Part shown: in pieces, positions 2,800 through 20,885 of the stretch | Position numbering within the stretch: position 1 is the first letter of the stretch | Layout: the number at the start of each line of letters is the position of its first letter | NCBI GenBank assembly: GCA_903889965.1 | Contig: CAISZM010000074.1 | Location: 1 to 39,606, forward strand | DNA from: an uncultured Elusimicrobia bacterium | GTDB lineage: Bacteria > Elusimicrobiota > Elusimicrobia > Elusimicrobiales > UBA9959 | DNA length: 39,606 nucleotides | Direction: 5' to 3' | Made by a program: the position numbers and the translations under genes | Notes under the pieces: generated by a model | The model's input: only the letters and a program-made list of their open reading frames with translations | The model's database searches: none | What the model was told of the DNA's origin: nothing

Positions 2800-2940
2800 A
2801 AAGCCCCCTTTTATGACCGCGGCAGCAGATAAGTGAGCAGGGAACGAAGAAGTTATGAAAATAGTGTAGCAGGCGTGCGCGACACCGTCCTGTCGGGTTG
2901 ATAAACACTTATCCCGCATAATTTTCTAAAATATACGCTG

Positions 2941-3783
2941 ATGCCGACTCTAAGAACGATATTCCCGGCGGTATTCGCGGCCGTCCTTCTGCTGGCCCCG
3001 GCCGTTTCCGCCCGCCAGCGGGGGGATGAGCGAAATGTCTTCAGATCCTACTATACGCCGGAATACCTCGCTTTCAGGGCGCGCATCATGGCGGAATTCT
3101 CCGGCGTCAAGGCGGGGAAATTCAGCGAGTTCGTGAAACCCTCGCGCAAGGACACGGCGAAAAACGGCGATCTTAAGGTGATGGCGCTTACCTTCGACGC
3201 CTGCGGCGGGCGTCACAGCGGCTACAACGCCGCTCTTATAGATTACCTCCGCCGCGAGCAGATCCCCGCGACCTTGTTCGTCAGCGGCATCTGGCTCGAG
3301 AAAAACAAAAGCACCTTCGCGGAGCTGGCGAAAGACCCGCTTTTTGAAATAGAAAATCATGGCCTTATGCACCGCCTGTGTTCCACCGAAGGCCGTACGA
3401 TGTTCAAGGTCCATGCGACGCGGAACCTTAGCGACGTCATTGACGAGATGGAACTGGGCGCGAGAAGAATATCCGGGCTCAGCGGCCGCCGCCCGCTTTT
3501 CTTCCGCTCCGCGACCGCTTATACAGATGAGCTTTCCCTGAAAGTGGCGAAGCGGCTGGGCATGGAGGTGGTCAGTTATGACATCTTGTCCGGCGACGCA
3601 AGCAAGGCTTCCGCTAAAACAATGGAGAAAAATATTTTAAAAGGCGCGCGGCATGGAGCCGTGGTGATAATGCATTTTAATCATCCCGAATGGCACGAAA
3701 AAGAGGCGCTCGAGATGGCTGTCCCCGAGCTGCGCAAGCGCGGTTTTTCCTTCGCCAGGCTTGAGGATTTTACTATACAGTAG
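2941..3783 (+). CDS. Exported polysaccharide deacetylase (NodB/CE4-like)
   Basis: The 280-residue product has a signal peptide (hydrophobic core at about residues 8-24, likely cleavage after AVSA) and a CE4 NodB domain. Motif 1 is TFDAC, with the candidate catalytic base Asp86. Motif 2 is NHGLMH, with metal-ligand candidates His140 and His144. Motif 3 is FFRSATAY with Arg189, and the C-terminal motif has His245 in MHFNH. The second Asp of the classical TFDD motif is Ala, as in some divergent CE4 subfamilies, so metal coordination may differ. The likely role is deacetylation of peptidoglycan or an exopolysaccharide outside the cytoplasm. It stands alone and is followed by an intrinsic terminator. 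No clear Shine-Dalgarno precedes the ATG. Confidence 0.88.
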   Translation: MPTLRTIFPAVFAAVLLLAPAVSARQRGDERNVFRSYYTPEYLAFRARIMAEFSGVKAGKFSEFVKPSRKDTAKNGDLKVMALTFDACGGRHSGYNAALIDYLRREQIPATLFVSGIWLEKNKSTFAELAKDPLFEIENHGLMHRLCSTEGRTMFKVHATRNLSDVIDEMELGARRISGLSGRRPLFFRSATAYTDELSLKVAKRLGMEVVSYDILSGDASKASAKTMEKNILKGARHGAVVIMHFNHPEWHEKEALEMAVPELRKRGFSFARLEDFTIQ

Positions 3784-3814
3784 GGTCTTGCTCCCCGATT
3801 TCAGTTGGCGTCCC

Positions 3815-3849
3815 GGGCCGCATAAATTTGTGCGGCCCGCTTGTTTTTT
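3815..3849 (+). terminator. Rho-independent terminator after the deacetylase gene
   Basis: An 8-bp perfect G+C-rich stem (3815-3822 with 3831-3838, arms GGGCCGCA/TGCGGCCC) with an 8-nt loop is followed by a T-rich tract ending at 3849. It lies 31 nt after the deacetylase stop codon. Confidence 0.85.
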
Positions 3850-3915
3850 GGCATCTTTAACGGCGGGCTTGACCACTGGGTGAGCGCGGCGAATAGCGCG
3901 GCGCGGCCAGGGGGG

Positions 3916-3944
3916 TTGACAAGTCAAGGTTCGTCTGTTATACT
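3916..3944 (+). promoter_or_regulatory. Consensus sigma-70 promoter of a noncoding transcript
   Basis: TTGACA at 3916-3921 and TATACT at 3939-3944 are separated by exactly 17 nt. This is one of the best promoters visible in the window. The -35 box is part of a dyad, TTGAC-AA-GTCAA (3916-3927), that could be an operator. Expected transcription start is near 3951. No credible protein-coding gene follows before the terminator at 4289. Confidence 0.85.
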
Positions 3945-3950
3945 CGTAAT

Positions 3951-4289
3951 GTAGTCTTGATCTTTTCAGAGCGCCGTCGGTGTTGTTGTTTCGGGGCTCC
4001 CGGTCATCCGGGCCCCAGGCGCGTATCCCCCGGTTCGCGGTTTATTATCGGCGCGTTCGCGGGGAGTGCCCGGACCGTCTCCCGCCCTTTAGGGCGGCGC
4101 GGTTTCCGGGTCCCGGTTCGGCTGGCCGCCTTGAGGCGTAGCTTGCTCCCGGGTGGGTGTTCCGGTCCGGCCGCTTAGGCGTCCGGGTCGCCCGGTCCGC
4201 CCCTTAAGTAAGCGGTTGTTGGTTCGGTTATAGCGGTTATGGCCCGTGTGCCAATTGAAGAGCCCCCGTTCGCGGGGGCTCTCATTTTT
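3951..4289 (+). ncRNA. Structured noncoding RNA of about 340 nt, family not recognised
   Basis: The segment is bounded by a consensus promoter (3916-3944) and a strong terminator (4259-4289), and has no convincing ORF with a ribosome binding site. Several G+C-rich hairpins can be drawn. In one, 3971-3975 pairs with 4018-4022 around a nested GGGG/CCCC and CCCGG-TCAT-CCGGG hairpin. In another, 4069-4077 pairs with 4100-4110 around CCGCCC-TTTA-GGGCGG. A small CGCC-TTGA-GGCG hairpin lies at 4127-4138. The words CGGTTCG and CCGG recur. I looked for and did not find the conserved cores of RNase P RNA, the tRNA-like end of tmRNA, or the SRP apical loop; the length is also wrong for a typical 6S RNA. 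The 3' end probably coincides with the T-run. Transcription is inferred, not shown. A divergent member of a known RNA class remains possible. Confidence 0.68.
4259..4289 (+). terminator. Strong intrinsic terminator with a TTCG loop
   Basis: A 10-bp perfect stem (4259-4268 with 4273-4282) is closed by a TTCG tetraloop and followed by CATTTTT. It ends the noncoding transcript starting near 3951. The next gene, recQ, begins 171 nt further on, so this is not the terminator of a protein gene. Confidence 0.9.
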
Positions 4290-4459
4290 ATGCCTGGAAA
4301 GACCGGCTGGCATCTTTTTAGCCATAAAATGCCGGTCAGGTGATCGGAAGGCGCGGTAAAATCCTCCGTTCCGCATGCTATAGTATTTCAAGCGCTTCCG
4401 GTTTCCCGCGGGCAAAAACGCGGGCCCGTATCGATATTTAACCGGAAGATCATCTTTTC

Positions 4460-6316
4460 ATGACGCCAGAAAAAGTTTTAAAACAGCACTGGGGTTACAC
4501 CGTATTCAAGCCGCTGCAGCGCGAGGCGATAGAGGCCGCGCTCTCAGGGCGTGACTGCCTCGTTGTCCTGCCAACGGGCGGCGGCAAAAGCCTGTGCTAC
4601 CAATTGCCGGCCGCCATGGGCGGCGGCCTGGTACTGGTCGTATCCCCGCTGATAGCCCTCATGGACGACCAGGTGGCCGCCGCGCGCGAGGCCGGGCTGG
4701 CCGCGGACGCGCTGCACTCCAATCTGAAAGCTGCCCCCAGGCGCGAAGTCTACGCCAATCTCGCCGCCGGCAGGACAACCTTGCTGTACGTAAGCCCGGA
4801 GCGCCTGCTGGCCGGGGACCTGTTCGACCTGATAGCCCCGCGCCTGATACTTGCCGCCGTGGACGAGGCGCACTGCGTCTCACATTGGGGCCACGAGTTC
4901 CGCCCGGAATACCGCCGCCTTACGGAGGCGCTGGACCTTTTCCCGAAAGCCGCGCGCATGGCGCTCACCGCCACCGCCACGCCGGCCGTCCGGGAGGATA
5001 TCCTGGCCCAGCTGGCGCTGCGCTCCCCCGCGGTGCTTGTCGGTCACCCTGACCGGCCCAACCTCGTTTACCGCGCTTTCCCCCGCCGCGACCAGTTCAA
5101 ACAGGTGCTGGAGACGGTGCGCCGCCATCCTGGCGAGGGCGGAATAGTTTACGCCCAAACCCGCAAGGACGTGGAACGCCTGGCCGCAAAACTTAAAGCT
5201 GAGGGTGTTTCGAGCGCTCCGTACCACGCGGGCCTGAACGCCGGGGAAAGGCGCAAGGCGCAGGACGACTTCGTGAACGAGCGCCTGGATGTGGTGGTGG
5301 CAACCATAGCCTTCGGCATGGGTATAGACCGCTCGAACGTGCGCTATGTTGTGCACGCGAATACGCCGCGCTCGGTGGAGCATTACCAGCAGGAGAGCGG
5401 CCGCGCCGGGCGCGACGGCCTGAGCGCCGAGTGCACGCTGTTATTCTCGGCATCCGACCTGGCCACTCACCGCTGGCTGGCAAAAAAAGACGTAAACCTT
5501 TCGCCCGAGCGCGCCCGGACCATAGAGCGGCAGCTGCGGGACATCGGCCGCTTCGCGGTCTCGCCGGTCTGCCGCCACAGCCTGCTGTCGGAGCATTTCG
5601 GGGAGCCATACCCGGCTGACGGGACACCCGCCGGGGCGGGGGGGTGCGGGGCCTGCGACGTTTGCCTTGGCGAGACGAAGGGCCTCACCGAGGAGGAGGC
5701 CCGGCTTACGGCCAAAAAGGTTTTAAGCGCGGCCTGGCGCGCCGAGGGCCGCTACGGCACCGGCTACGTTGTGAACCTGCTGCTGGGCCGCGCAAGCGAG
5801 CGCATGGCCGCGAACGGGCACGATCAGCTTAAGGTTTTCGGCCTGCTCAAAGAGGCCGGCGAACCCGCCGTACGCTCGTGGATAGACCAGCTTATAGTGC
5901 AGGATTGCCTGGAGGTCACCGAGGACGGCGAATATCCCCTGCTGCGCATAACCGCCGCCGGACGGGCCCTCTGCCAGGACAAGGGAATGGTGCGCCTCGG
6001 CCTGCCCGCGCAGCCGGCAAAAGGCAGGAAAAAATCCAAAGCCCTCAAAAACGCGCCCGGCGTCTTCTTGAGGGAGGATGAGGAACTGTTCGAAAAACTG
6101 CGGGCGCTGCGCCGCTCGCTGGCCGACAAGGCAGGCATACCGCCCTATGTTGTCTGCCACGATACGGCTCTGCTGGAAATGGCGGCCTCCAAACCGCTGA
6201 CCCTCGACGCCCTGCTCGGGATAAAAGGCATGGGCGAAAAGCGCGTGGAAAAATACGGCAGGCTTTTCCTCGGCGCTATAACCGCCCTTCCCGACGTGGA
6301 ACAGGGGAATATGTAA
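4460..6316 (+). CDS. recQ: ATP-dependent DNA helicase RecQ
   Basis: At 618 residues this is the normal length for bacterial RecQ. All superfamily-2 motifs are visible: the FKPLQ Q-motif near residue 17, Walker A TGGGKS with Lys43, DEAH at 135-138 within the RecQ-specific aromatic-rich loop CVSHWGHEF, TATAT motif III, and QESGRAGRDG motif VI. A zinc-binding RQC region follows at about 372-404 (C, then CGACDVC), then a winged helix, and an HRDC domain at about 535-612 ending in GIKGMGEKRVEKYG. It unwinds DNA 3'-5' in recombination and replication-fork repair. No strong Shine-Dalgarno sequence is seen. It lies downstream of the noncoding RNA locus and is probably transcribed separately. Confidence 0.97.
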   Translation: MTPEKVLKQHWGYTVFKPLQREAIEAALSGRDCLVVLPTGGGKSLCYQLPAAMGGGLVLVVSPLIALMDDQVAAAREAGLAADALHSNLKAAPRREVYANLAAGRTTLLYVSPERLLAGDLFDLIAPRLILAAVDEAHCVSHWGHEFRPEYRRLTEALDLFPKAARMALTATATPAVREDILAQLALRSPAVLVGHPDRPNLVYRAFPRRDQFKQVLETVRRHPGEGGIVYAQTRKDVERLAAKLKAEGVSSAPYHAGLNAGERRKAQDDFVNERLDVVVATIAFGMGIDRSNVRYVVHANTPRSVEHYQQESGRAGRDGLSAECTLLFSASDLATHRWLAKKDVNLSPERARTIERQLRDIGRFAVSPVCRHSLLSEHFGEPYPADGTPAGAGGCGACDVCLGETKGLTEEEARLTAKKVLSAAWRAEGRYGTGYVVNLLLGRASERMAANGHDQLKVFGLLKEAGEPAVRSWIDQLIVQDCLEVTEDGEYPLLRITAAGRALCQDKGMVRLGLPAQPAKGRKKSKALKNAPGVFLREDEELFEKLRALRRSLADKAGIPPYVVCHDTALLEMAASKPLTLDALLGIKGMGEKRVEKYGRLFLGAITALPDVEQGNM

Positions 6317-16580: not shown

Positions 16581-17558
16581 TCAGTCTTCGCTGGGTTCTA
16601 CCGGTTCGGAAAGGCCGTCCACGGAAAATTCCTGCGTGCCGTCCAGGTCGCTTCGGAATACGGAGGCGCCTACTGCTTTGATGCGGTCGATCGAGGATTG
16701 GGCCGGGTGCCCGTAGTTGTTCTTGCCGACTTCTATGAAGGCTTTCTTGGGCATTACGGTCTCCAGGAAGGCTTGGCTGGAGGAGTATGGGCTGCCGTGG
16801 TGTCCGACCTTAAGCACGTCGGACTTGAGTTCAGCGCCGAACCGCGCCACCATGCGGGCTTCCGCGTCGCTTTGATCGTCGCCCACAAAGAGCATAGAAG
16901 CGTTTTGATACGTGACCTTTATAGTAAGGGAACAGTTATTTATAATGCTTCCGTCGCTGCTTTGCACGGGCTCGGGGCAGGAGTTGAAGACTTTTACGCC
17001 CAAGCCGCCGGGACCCCATGAAATATCGTCTCCGGGGGCCGGGTAGAAGGTATTGACGCCCAGGGCTTTAACCTGGCTGCGCAGCGCCTCATCCCCGGTG
17101 GCGGCGGTGTTATCCATGCGCGTATCGTAAAAATTGCCTACAGTGATGGCCGAAAAAACATACTGCAAGCCTTTATAGTGGTCCGCGTGGGGGTGCGTGA
17201 GCACCACATAGTCTATCTTTGAAACTTTCTTCTGGCTGAGGAACTGGGCGAGGGCGCCGGTGGCGGACTTGGAGGGGCCGCCGTCTATAAGGGCGTTCTG
17301 GCCGTTGGGCAGTTCCAGATAAATGGAATCGCCCTGCCCGACGCTGAGGAAATAAACGTTCAGCCCGGGGGCCGCCGTATAAAGGGTTGCGTTTCCCGGG
17401 ACCGGAGCCAGCGGTATTTCGACGGCCGGAACGGAATTATTCAGCTGATCGAGGGATTGGGCGCTGGCGGCGGGAGAAAAACGAAATACGGATAAAAAAA
17501 GTATTACAGCGGAGACGGCTGCTTTGCGTGCTGTGGATGCGGGAGGGTTCTTGTTCAC
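16581..17558 (-). CDS. Exported ComEC-like metallo-beta-lactamase-fold hydrolase
   Basis: The minus frame is open far upstream, but the GTG at 17558 gives a start immediately before a signal peptide (K-rich start, then AVSAVILFLSVFRFSPAASA), for about 325 residues. The mature domain is the ComEC/Rec2 C-terminal type: VYFLSVGQGDSIYLEL, LIDGG, the metal motif THPHADH, SDG...CSLTIKV, MLFVGDD and VGHHGS. In ComEC this domain is fused to a DNA-uptake channel; here it is free-standing and exported, so it may be an extracellular nuclease or phosphodiesterase. That role is an inference. The transcript probably ends at the bidirectional terminator 16436-16466. Confidence 0.88.
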   Translation of the reverse strand: MNKNPPASTARKAAVSAVILFLSVFRFSPAASAQSLDQLNNSVPAVEIPLAPVPGNATLYTAAPGLNVYFLSVGQGDSIYLELPNGQNALIDGGPSKSATGALAQFLSQKKVSKIDYVVLTHPHADHYKGLQYVFSAITVGNFYDTRMDNTAATGDEALRSQVKALGVNTFYPAPGDDISWGPGGLGVKVFNSCPEPVQSSDGSIINNCSLTIKVTYQNASMLFVGDDQSDAEARMVARFGAELKSDVLKVGHHGSPYSSSQAFLETVMPKKAFIEVGKNNYGHPAQSSIDRIKAVGASVFRSDLDGTQEFSVDGLSEPVEPSED

Positions 17559-17863
17559 GTGTTGTAATCCATCTCCACTTGCCGGGGTCCGTCCGAGCGC
17601 AAACCCGATTGCCGAGCCCCTTCCGTGGTGAATCCGGATTAAGGTCCGGAGGTGGATGCTCCCCAGCCAATCCCGGGGATTACACGTTAGCACGCATAGT
17701 TTACAGCCCGGGATGACTTCACTCAAGGGCCAAAGGACCTATGTGTCTATAGGTCTAAAGGCCTAATCGTTATCGCGTGAACGGCGGCCGGGTTCGCCGC
17801 CATTAACCGCGTTGAAGAAGCACCTTTATGTGTCCGGGCAAATGGTAAAATTGAGATTAAAGC
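17559..17863. other. Divergent intergenic region between hydrolase and Pif1 helicase genes
   Basis: This 305-nt gap separates the start of the minus-strand hydrolase from the plus-strand helicase. It holds several small dyads (for example CCGGA/TCCGG around 17633-17649 and AATCCC/GGGATT near 17669-17682). The 17728-17763 dyad is described separately. I considered a structured leader for the hydrolase mRNA but matched no known riboswitch core. No strong promoter could be assigned to either gene. Confidence 0.4.
17735..17767. promoter_or_regulatory. Candidate regulatory element, copy A
   Basis: A 33-bp stretch resembles the one at 20992-21024 without gaps (about 21 of 33 positions by eye). The shared core has CCTATGT on the left and GGTCT followed by AGG on the right. 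In this copy GACCTAT (17736-17742) and ATAGGTC (17749-17755) form a dyad, flanked by GGCC on both sides (17728-17731 and 17760-17763). It lies about 100 nt before the helicase start and about 180 nt before the divergent hydrolase gene. Confidence 0.45.
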
Positions 17864-19568: not shown

Positions 19569-20885
19569 TTATTTCAGGTCAAAGCTCTCTATGGTGCTGG
19601 CTTCGGCGCCGGTTGAGAGCGGGCCGCGGCGTGTGAACTTTATGGTTATCATGTACTTGCCGGGCTTGGGAGCGTTCATAAGCTTGATGTCATACGAAGG
19701 GGCCACGTCGAAGGAGCCCTGAGCGTTTATCTCCACGAACGAGTTAGCAATACCCTCCGGGGTGAGCTGTGTCATATCCGGGATGTTCATGCCGCTTACG
19801 GATATGTCTATCTTCTCGCCCTTGAAGTACATGGCCCGGTTGTCGTTCAGCACCAGGCGCACGTCGCCGGCGGCAGTTACTCCCACGCTGTTAACGGAGA
19901 GCTCTTTTGAATCCGGGTTGGACGGCTTTTTCAAGCCTGGCGTCAGGTCGAAGACGGTGGCATGGCCGAAGAAAAATCCGTCATGGTCCTGGGAGTTTAC
20001 CGTGTACTGGTAAAGCATGTCCGAGGTGTCGACGCGGGGCGAATTGCCCGGGTCAAGGCAGACCTTAAGGTTCTCTTTCTCCCAGGTCTCAAGGGCGCGG
20101 GGCCCTATGTTGACGGTGATCTTCCTGGTGAAGTACCGGCCGGTATGCCTGCAGTACTGTACCCCGTTGTTCATATAGCAGTCGAAGCTAGGCTCTTCGC
20201 CGCTGAGTTCCTCGGTGCGGGTGTTGGGTGTTTGCGCGGAGAATTCCCAGGTGCGGCAGTTCAATTCGGGATAGACGGGTGAATAGGGGTAACCATCGTG
20301 GCTATCCCAGCCGTCGTGATTGCCGGGGTGGTTGTCCCAGCCGTCGTGGTTGCCGGGGTGGTTGTCCCAGCCGTCGTGGTTGCCGGGGTGGTTGTCCCAA
20401 CCGTCATGGTTTCCGGGATGGTTATCTATATTCCCGGGGTGGTTGTCCCAACCGTCGTGGTTTCCGGGATGGTTGTCAATGTTGCCGGGGTGATTGTCCC
20501 AGCCGTCGTGGTTGCCGGGATGGTTATCGATATGTCCGGGGTGGTTATCGATATTTCCGGGGTGATTATCGAAGTTCCCGGGATGATTGCCGATATTGCC
20601 GGGGTGGTTATCGATATTTCCGGGGTGATTATCGAAGTTCCCGGGATGGTTGCCTATATTTCCGGGATGGTTATCAAAGTTCCCGGGATGATTATCGTTG
20701 TGGCCGCCATTATTAACCGGCTGGAAATGGCCCGGTTGGGGAATCCCGCTATACTGCTGGGGACCAAGCGTATTAACGATATCCAGCACATCGTCTATTC
20801 CCTTGTCGAAATCAACCTCCGCGGCGTATGCGCCGGTAGAAAGAGCGAGCGCGGCCGCTACCGCGAGCAAACTTGATTTTTTCAT
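19569..20885 (-). CDS. Exported protein with NHPGN-type tandem repeats
   Basis: The 438-residue product has a signal peptide (MKKSSLLAVAAALALSTGAYA) and GGGAGGG 4 nt before the ATG. Residues 65-194 are 16 tandem units beginning NHPG: ten 7-residue units (NHPGN + ID, FD or IG) and six 10-residue units (NHPGNHDGWD). They are rich in His, Asn, Asp and Gly. Residues ~205-438 look beta-rich, with cysteines near 207, 235, 244 and 279 and an ending resembling an Ig-like or carbohydrate-binding fold. I do not recognise the family. The repeats could bind metal or form an extended spacer on the cell surface; this is speculation. The gene is monocistronic by context, with a candidate regulatory element about 110 nt upstream. 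Confidence 0.82.
   Translation of the reverse strand: MKKSSLLAVAAALALSTGAYAAEVDFDKGIDDVLDIVNTLGPQQYSGIPQPGHFQPVNNGGHNDNHPGNFDNHPGNIGNHPGNFDNHPGNIDNHPGNIGNHPGNFDNHPGNIDNHPGHIDNHPGNHDGWDNHPGNIDNHPGNHDGWDNHPGNIDNHPGNHDGWDNHPGNHDGWDNHPGNHDGWDNHPGNHDGWDSHDGYPYSPVYPELNCRTWEFSAQTPNTRTEELSGEEPSFDCYMNNGVQYCRHTGRYFTRKITVNIGPRALETWEKENLKVCLDPGNSPRVDTSDMLYQYTVNSQDHDGFFFGHATVFDLTPGLKKPSNPDSKELSVNSVGVTAAGDVRLVLNDNRAMYFKGEKIDISVSGMNIPDMTQLTPEGIANSFVEINAQGSFDVAPSYDIKLMNAPKPGKYMITIKFTRRGPLSTGAEASTIESFDLK
20304..20693 (-). repeat. Coding tandem repeat, 16 units of 21 or 30 bp
   Basis: The DNA here consists of imperfect 30-bp units (encoding NHPGNHDGWD) toward the low-coordinate end and 21-bp units toward the high-coordinate end. 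Synonymous differences between units show that selection has kept the peptide pattern. The antisense strand is open too, but only because of the repeat periodicity. Unit number is likely to vary between strains. Confidence 0.93.

Follow-up and report, generated by a model that had tools for sequence, protein, structure and literature searches.

In outline, CsrB, CsrC and RsmZ are stand-alone, paralogous RNAs in which a short motif is repeated on a molecule of many hairpins. Ms1 RNA measures about 300 nt, and OLE, ROOL, GOLLD and raiA are large, conserved, non-coding structured RNAs of bacteria. Unpaired adenine is normally common in structured RNA. According to the report on Bacteroides (PMC11697453), FopS RNAs consist of a single-stranded 5′ stretch and a terminator hairpin, have 14 members in one species and occur with RbpB, so that an RRM-type protein can accompany paralogous RNAs. 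Searches of an open-access library gave no work on RNA of Elusimicrobiota.

The locus described here was analysed in a window (the whole stretch of DNA studied, 39,606 nt) from an uncultured Elusimicrobia bacterium. Its RNA belongs to a real family, which is new, missing from Rfam 15 and conserved in three genera of one phylum. Like CsrB, CsrC and RsmZ, the family is stand-alone and paralogous and repeats a short motif over many hairpins; unlike in CsrB and RsmZ, this motif is CGGU and not GGA (A-N-GGA), and both GGA (3.7 per kb in the RNA body, 16.5–17.6 in the flanks) and AGGA (0.1 versus 3.3–3.5 per kb) are depleted. The partner protein CsrA was found in 0 of 32 genomes of the genus (control positive in 3 of 14), which excludes the best known titration pair. 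With 6S RNA and Ms1, the RNA shares its stand-alone structured nature and a size of a few hundred nucleotides, but it is without their rod and central bubble, without an Rfam match and present at one to five loci per genome. Like OLE, ROOL, GOLLD and raiA, it is large, conserved, structured and non-coding; unlike them, it has no Rfam match, is adenine-poor and has a promoter pattern that does not occur in the viral contig collection searched. FopS resembles it as a set of paralogous RNAs in RRM-carrying bacteria and, as described in that report (PMC11697453), differs from its large multi-hairpin body and its one to five loci.

Genomic context and class of the RNA

The promoter (3916–3944, plus strand) is composed of a −35 box TTGACA (3916–3921), which lies within the inverted repeat TTGACAAGTCAA (3916–3927), a 17-nt spacer and a −10 box TATACT (3939–3944); the coordinates of both boxes were checked. 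The initial annotation had called this promoter perfect: it is present, and perfect at −35 only, with the consensus matched at 11 of 12 positions overall. Judged from the −10 box, the RNA would start near 3951, which gives an adenine-poor, CGGU-rich RNA of about 339 nt with many hairpins (3951–4289, plus strand), as seen in its fold z-score and body composition. Its 5′ end TGTAGTCTTGATCTTTT (3950–3966) is conserved and probably single-stranded, according to the alignment of 65 copies and to shared 5′ words. The conserved 3′ segment TGGCCCGTGTGCCAATTGA (4240–4258), taken from the alignment of copies, precedes an intrinsic terminator (4259–4289) that was identified by a terminator scan and by comparison of copies; its hairpin AGAGCCCCCG-TTCG-CGGGGGCTCT (4259–4282) is followed directly by CATTTTT. 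The TTCG-capped terminator proposed earlier was thereby located, and its expression is matched in 60 of 65 full-length copies. Within 2800–5600, promoter-like sites numbered two against a shuffle mean of 0.8; the terminator scan was weak there, with six sites against 3.9 (sd 2.1) in shuffles. Upstream of the window's own promoter the A+T content is 24 %, that is, there is no A/T-rich stretch; such a stretch precedes the promoter in 38 of the 65 copies.

The locus is flanked upstream by a polysaccharide deacetylase gene (2941–3783), which is followed by a terminator-like hairpin of its own (3814–3839), and downstream by recQ (4460–6316), in agreement with the earlier view that it stands alone between two genes.

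A search of the element (3780–4470) against Rfam 15 gave nothing at the gathering threshold and, at E values up to 10, only seven matches below that threshold, the best with E 0.22; Rfam had no match for two copies from sister genera (L204, L205) either. The interpretation as a stand-alone structured RNA outside the known classes is thus supported, as is the statement that the cores of RNase P RNA, tmRNA and SRP RNA are missing here. Even at E values up to 10 the element was not matched by RNase P RNA (RF00010) or SRP RNA, and no tmRNA (RF00023) was found in the window. The genome carries its own RNase P RNA on contig C37 and its own tmRNA on another contig (G000:C49); RNase P RNA is above the cut-off in 29 of the 32 genus genomes. 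The small SRP RNA model (RF00169) matched 0 of these 32 genomes, though 11 of 14 controls were positive. These searches, with the one for 6S RNA described below, indicate that the locus is neither RNase P RNA nor tmRNA, 6S RNA or small SRP RNA.

Protein coding was rejected, as neither the lengths of internal gaps nor the spacing of substitutions has a three-base periodicity. Among copies 75–99 % identical, gap lengths modulo 3 equalled 1, 0 and 2 in 60, 12 and 11 cases, respectively. The longest ATG frame has a median of 1 codon; the longest frame with any start has a median of 88 codons and is read as chance, stop codons being rare because adenine is rare. The initial annotation would have been contradicted by a conserved small ORF inside the element; gap lengths, periodicity and frames all lack a coding signal.

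A leader or riboswitch of the downstream gene was likewise rejected. By mechanical ORF calls, the nearest downstream ORFs of 72 loci fall into 61 clusters, the commonest of which accounts for three loci, and lie on the same strand in 43 cases and on the opposite strand in 29; such varied and often opposed neighbours indicate that the RNA serves no one downstream gene. Upstream, one ORF cluster recurs at 11 of 74 loci and the deacetylase cluster at 10. These recurring neighbours, together with the division of the copies into subfamilies, led us to reject an RNA of a mobile element or phage for now; a search of a viral contig collection with the promoter pattern gave nothing.

The inverted repeat of the promoter was considered as a private operator of the RNA and rejected, since protein genes and another short RNA likewise have CTTGACAAGTCAAG in front of them. 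It often forms the −35 part of a promoter (genomes G000–G036); exact sites number 0–8 per genome in family f1 and 0 in 24 genomes of family f2, and its reversed control has one site in all genomes together. The other short RNA, found in two genera (L189, L200), is about 85 nt long with a terminator, contains GTGAACTCCC and lies just downstream of CTTGACAAGTCAAG with the same palindromic promoter; it has no Rfam match at the gathering threshold.

Conservation, folding and covariation

Of the 32 genomes in the Elusimicrobiota genus to which the window belongs, 31 were matched by nucleotide searching, the single exception being a 1.4 Mb genome that is 66 % complete; the total was 33 of 61 genomes, including two weak matches to the promoter end in sister genera. 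Covariance models of the core identified copies in two sister genera of the same family, in four genomes altogether, three of which have promoter and terminator patterns and the fourth the terminator pattern only. In a draw from the whole phylum, 24 of 294 genomes matched, in 3 of 90 genera and all in one family; these counts are lower bounds, because models R2 and R3 use strict filters and lose weak copies, and since R2 missed 11 of the 32 genus genomes, absence beyond the three genera is not proven. The conservation in relatives anticipated for an RNA of this kind is therefore present. A scan of a named genome collection with the promoter pattern returned 60 stretches, all from records titled Elusimicrobia, Elusimicrobiales, Elusimicrobiota or plain "bacterium".

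For the copy set, 80 stretches were taken; 74 loci, the window included, carry a copy, and 65 copies from 30 genomes are full-length by our own cut. Over 31 genomes there are at least one to five loci per genome if tandem copies are taken as one; these figures are minima, given that one copy (G015:C56) was seen only in covariance-model searches. All 65 full-length copies have a consensus-type promoter, with TTGACAAGTCAA exact in 63 and a −10-like box spaced by 17 nt in 64 and by 16 nt in one. Their tree resolves subfamilies A1, A2 and B: A1 includes the window and is often found just downstream of a deacetylase relative, several A2 copies lie near recQ, and B lies near another gene set. Two full copies of the RNA gene stand about 335 nt apart at one locus (L046, 3488–4802), and two partial copies about 10 nt apart at another (L050, 1618–2265).

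Folding of 3951–4289 on the plus strand gave −166.2 kcal/mol (z −3.48), and 0 of 100 shuffles were as stable, in keeping with the hairpin-rich, gene-free segment reported initially. The minus strand has the identical z of −3.48, so that folding alone cannot fix the strand; strand and reality are settled by conservation across copies, and on balance the selected product is the plus-strand RNA.

The core region (4068–4168) contains two hairpins. Hairpin 1 (4069–4110, plus strand) is built from P1 (4069–4073/4106–4110), P2 (4075–4077/4100–4102) and P3 (4082–4087/4092–4097); hairpin 2 (4112–4153, plus strand) has an outer stem (4112–4116/4149–4153) and an inner hairpin (4127–4130/4135–4138). Model R2, prepared from 13 rows and a hand-written structure, aligned 51 matches from 74 sources, with standard pairs in 95.3 % of 1474 cells. 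In the structure-fitted alignment (A3), whose rows are related and whose counts lean towards the hand-written structure, two-sided changes were found at 19 of 30 core pairs (8.0 in shuffles, 2 to 12 in partner-slid controls), with a covariation score of 0.241 against 0.137 in shuffles and 0.051–0.086 after sliding. All six P3 pairs of hairpin 1 have two-sided changes in the fitted alignment, and helices 4–6 of hairpin 2 are paired in 94–98 % of cells.

Alignments that were not fitted to the structure gave weaker tests. For the 23 type-A copies, 83,845 column pairs were compared; the top-scoring one belongs to hairpin 1 and is canonical throughout, and none of 150 null alignments generated along the tree reached its score. 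The other canonical pair of the same helix has E 0.05. Eight pairs of this set have E up to 0.5, three of them fully canonical; the second-best pair (E 0.013) is a non-canonical one (48 % canonical), and cross-correlations of the hairpin pairs account for two of the others. When 37 copies (type A and close kin) were used, the best pair fell in the same helix (E 0.08), and two of three pairs with E up to 0.5 were at least 92 % canonical. Among type-B copies alone, 20 simulations left a single pair, which sits at the limit of their resolution. RNAalifold, applied to a MAFFT alignment of the core (52 of 58 core matches), returned 12 pairs, none with a two-sided change, which in our reading is due to misaligned loops; model R1, derived from that result, was used in no search, and the hand-written structure on 13 rows was used instead. 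Core pairing is supported by covariation: the covarying base pairs, for which R-scape had been suggested and for which our own simulation test was used in its place, are present in fitted and unfitted alignments.

A further 5′ domain (3971–4022, plus strand) is proposed, in which GCGCC (3971–3975) would pair with GGCGC (4018–4022); in the window it is assigned by homology only and is absent from the window's own lowest-energy fold. Type-A alignments show the stem as GCGYCG paired with CGRCGC. Its arms were found by pattern in 47 of 65 copies and are fully paired in 46 (GCGTCG/CGACGC 8, GCGTCG/CGGCGC 6, GCGCCG/CGGCGC 32), counts that are indicative only, as most letters are fixed by the pattern, which in the window hit a site that is not homologous. 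The 3′ hairpin part of the same regular expression gave no consistent hairpin.

Adenine depletion and CGGU repetition

Two features go beyond the initial annotation, namely the depletion of adenine and the repetition of CGGU. Composition was followed along 61 copies and their 300-nt flanks: adenine makes up 21–25 % of the upstream and 19–21 % of the downstream flank, 12–16 % of the first tenth and the last two tenths of the body and 3–5 % of tenths 2 to 8; the depletion starts and stops with the predicted transcript bounds. Trimmed bodies contain 0.4 to 10.9 % adenine (median 5.3 %), and the window body contains 7.1 %, with CGGU 11 times and ACCG once. Three delimitable copies from sister genera have 7–9 % adenine and 7, 10 and 14 CGGU. 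So sharply bounded a near-absence of adenine is unusual for structured RNA, and we know of no precedent for this composition.

Each RNA carries 8 to 26 CGGU (median 13). The motif has a density of 36.8 per kb in the body, compared with 3.3 and 4.5 per kb in the flanks and 0.8 per kb for ACCG; over 65 bodies, CGGU occurs 905 times, compared with 323 in dinucleotide shuffles and 13 occurrences of the reverse complement. In 72 poorly alignable segments (1,576 nt), 77 CGGU were counted against 21 (sd 4.2) in shuffles, which would fit selection on how many motifs there are and not on where they stand. The predicted unpaired probability is 0.61 for the U of CGGU and 0.18 and 0.25 for its two G (0.19 for G in general). 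Since these two G are predicted to be mostly paired, the motif may not be a binding site but arise as a by-product wherever GC helices give way to U linkers.

For comparison, adenine was determined in 250-nt stretches before 16S (31–36 %, five genomes), in 400-nt 16S–23S spacers including tRNA genes (24–26 %, five genomes), in RNase P RNA (22 %, 12 of the 29 found) and in the genome's own tmRNA (23 %). None of these is adenine-poor, and the depletion is therefore no general effect of high transcription.

Proposed function and alternatives

The stand-alone gene, strong promoter, retained paralogues, variable arms around a fixed core and strand-specific repeated motif together resemble protein-titrating RNAs, and CGGU is a motif repeated beyond chance, as looked for in such RNAs. 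Our main reading, put at a probability of roughly 0.4, is that the window RNA is a copy of a new stand-alone, trans-acting family that titrates a protein. The strong promoter would make the RNA, whose rigid GC helical frame would display many CGG-U helix-to-linker junctions and nearly adenine-free, U-rich linkers; these repeated sites would bind and hold several copies of one protein, which the RNA would tune by titration, following the logic of CsrB or of 6S and Ms1 with another motif and partner. The strong promoter and the one to five loci per genome suggest an abundant housekeeping or regulatory RNA, as had been proposed from the promoter and hairpins.

The question of which protein, if any, reads an adenine-poor, CGGU-rich RNA can be tested. 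One candidate partner was looked at, a small RRM protein encoded in the genome itself as a single-RRM ORF of 111 aa with a glycine-rich tail (G000:C62:8452-8661, L227). Of the 32 genus genomes, 31 encode RRM proteins, and each of the four sister genomes with the RNA has a relative, one of them a fragment; the 24 genomes of f2, the other family sampled in the order, gave neither an RRM protein nor the RNA. RRM proteins are also encoded by 13 of the 18 family genomes in which R2 detected no RNA copy and by three of five further family genomes, so that the co-occurrence is not specific and the candidate is a lead only.

A bolder version, which we hold to be conceivable and somewhat doubtful, is that these RNAs form an adenine-excluding class, in which selection removes adenine, paired and unpaired alike, and multiplies CGG-U junctions. 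A protein would recognise these junctions, and adenine would break or misdirect the complex; alternatively, the RNA might be made or survive under ATP scarcity or in the presence of adenine-specific nucleases. If true, this would amount to a new design principle of RNA and a new global regulator in Elusimicrobiota.

It is unlikely that the RNA is instead the polymerase-binding RNA of this lineage, a stand-in for 6S or Ms1 that would hold RNA polymerase when growth slows. Ms1 is a reported precedent for another RNA of this function (PMC9130861, PMC4191392), and the 6S model (RF00013) matched 0 of 32 genus genomes, an absence that weighs little, as its control is positive in only 5 of 14 known genomes; the predicted fold is a chain of hairpins without a long rod and central bubble, and no 6S match was obtained in the element even at E up to 10.

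We consider it improbable that the RNA is a scaffold or self-assembles, with palindromic CCGG helices linking molecules into a multimer. CCGG occurs 603 times in the bodies against 394 expected, and variable arms on a fixed core would suit such a role, but short GC hairpins use CCGG anyway. Similarly small odds are given to an antisense sRNA that would pair with mRNAs through its conserved unpaired 5′ end (UGUAGUCYUGNUCUYU) and be stabilised by the rest. This end ranks with the most strongly conserved parts, and adenine amounts to 12 % in the first tenth and to 3–5 % in the seven that follow; initiation or promoter escape could equally conserve it, however, and the long structured body with a covarying core exceeds the needs of a stabiliser.

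Very improbable, and already weakened, is the reading of adenine depletion as a mutational by-product of very high transcription, with CGGU arising from GC hairpins and the RNA itself perhaps idle: G and T predominate in the variable segments (A 0.08, C 0.22, G 0.41, T 0.30), which fits the A-to-G and C-to-T direction of transcription-linked change, but adenine is not scarce in other spacers and RNAs that the genus transcribes strongly, covariation shows selection on structure, and the RNA has long been retained (31 of 32 genus genomes).

Two further features were observed elsewhere in the window. A 2dG-II purine riboswitch aptamer (RF03165, 76.2 bits; 17620–17690, minus strand) sits at the start of an ORF (16581–17726, minus strand) whose product reads like a protein of the metallo-beta-lactamase fold, and another minus-strand ORF (19569–20885) carries a long tandem array of DNHPGN-type units.
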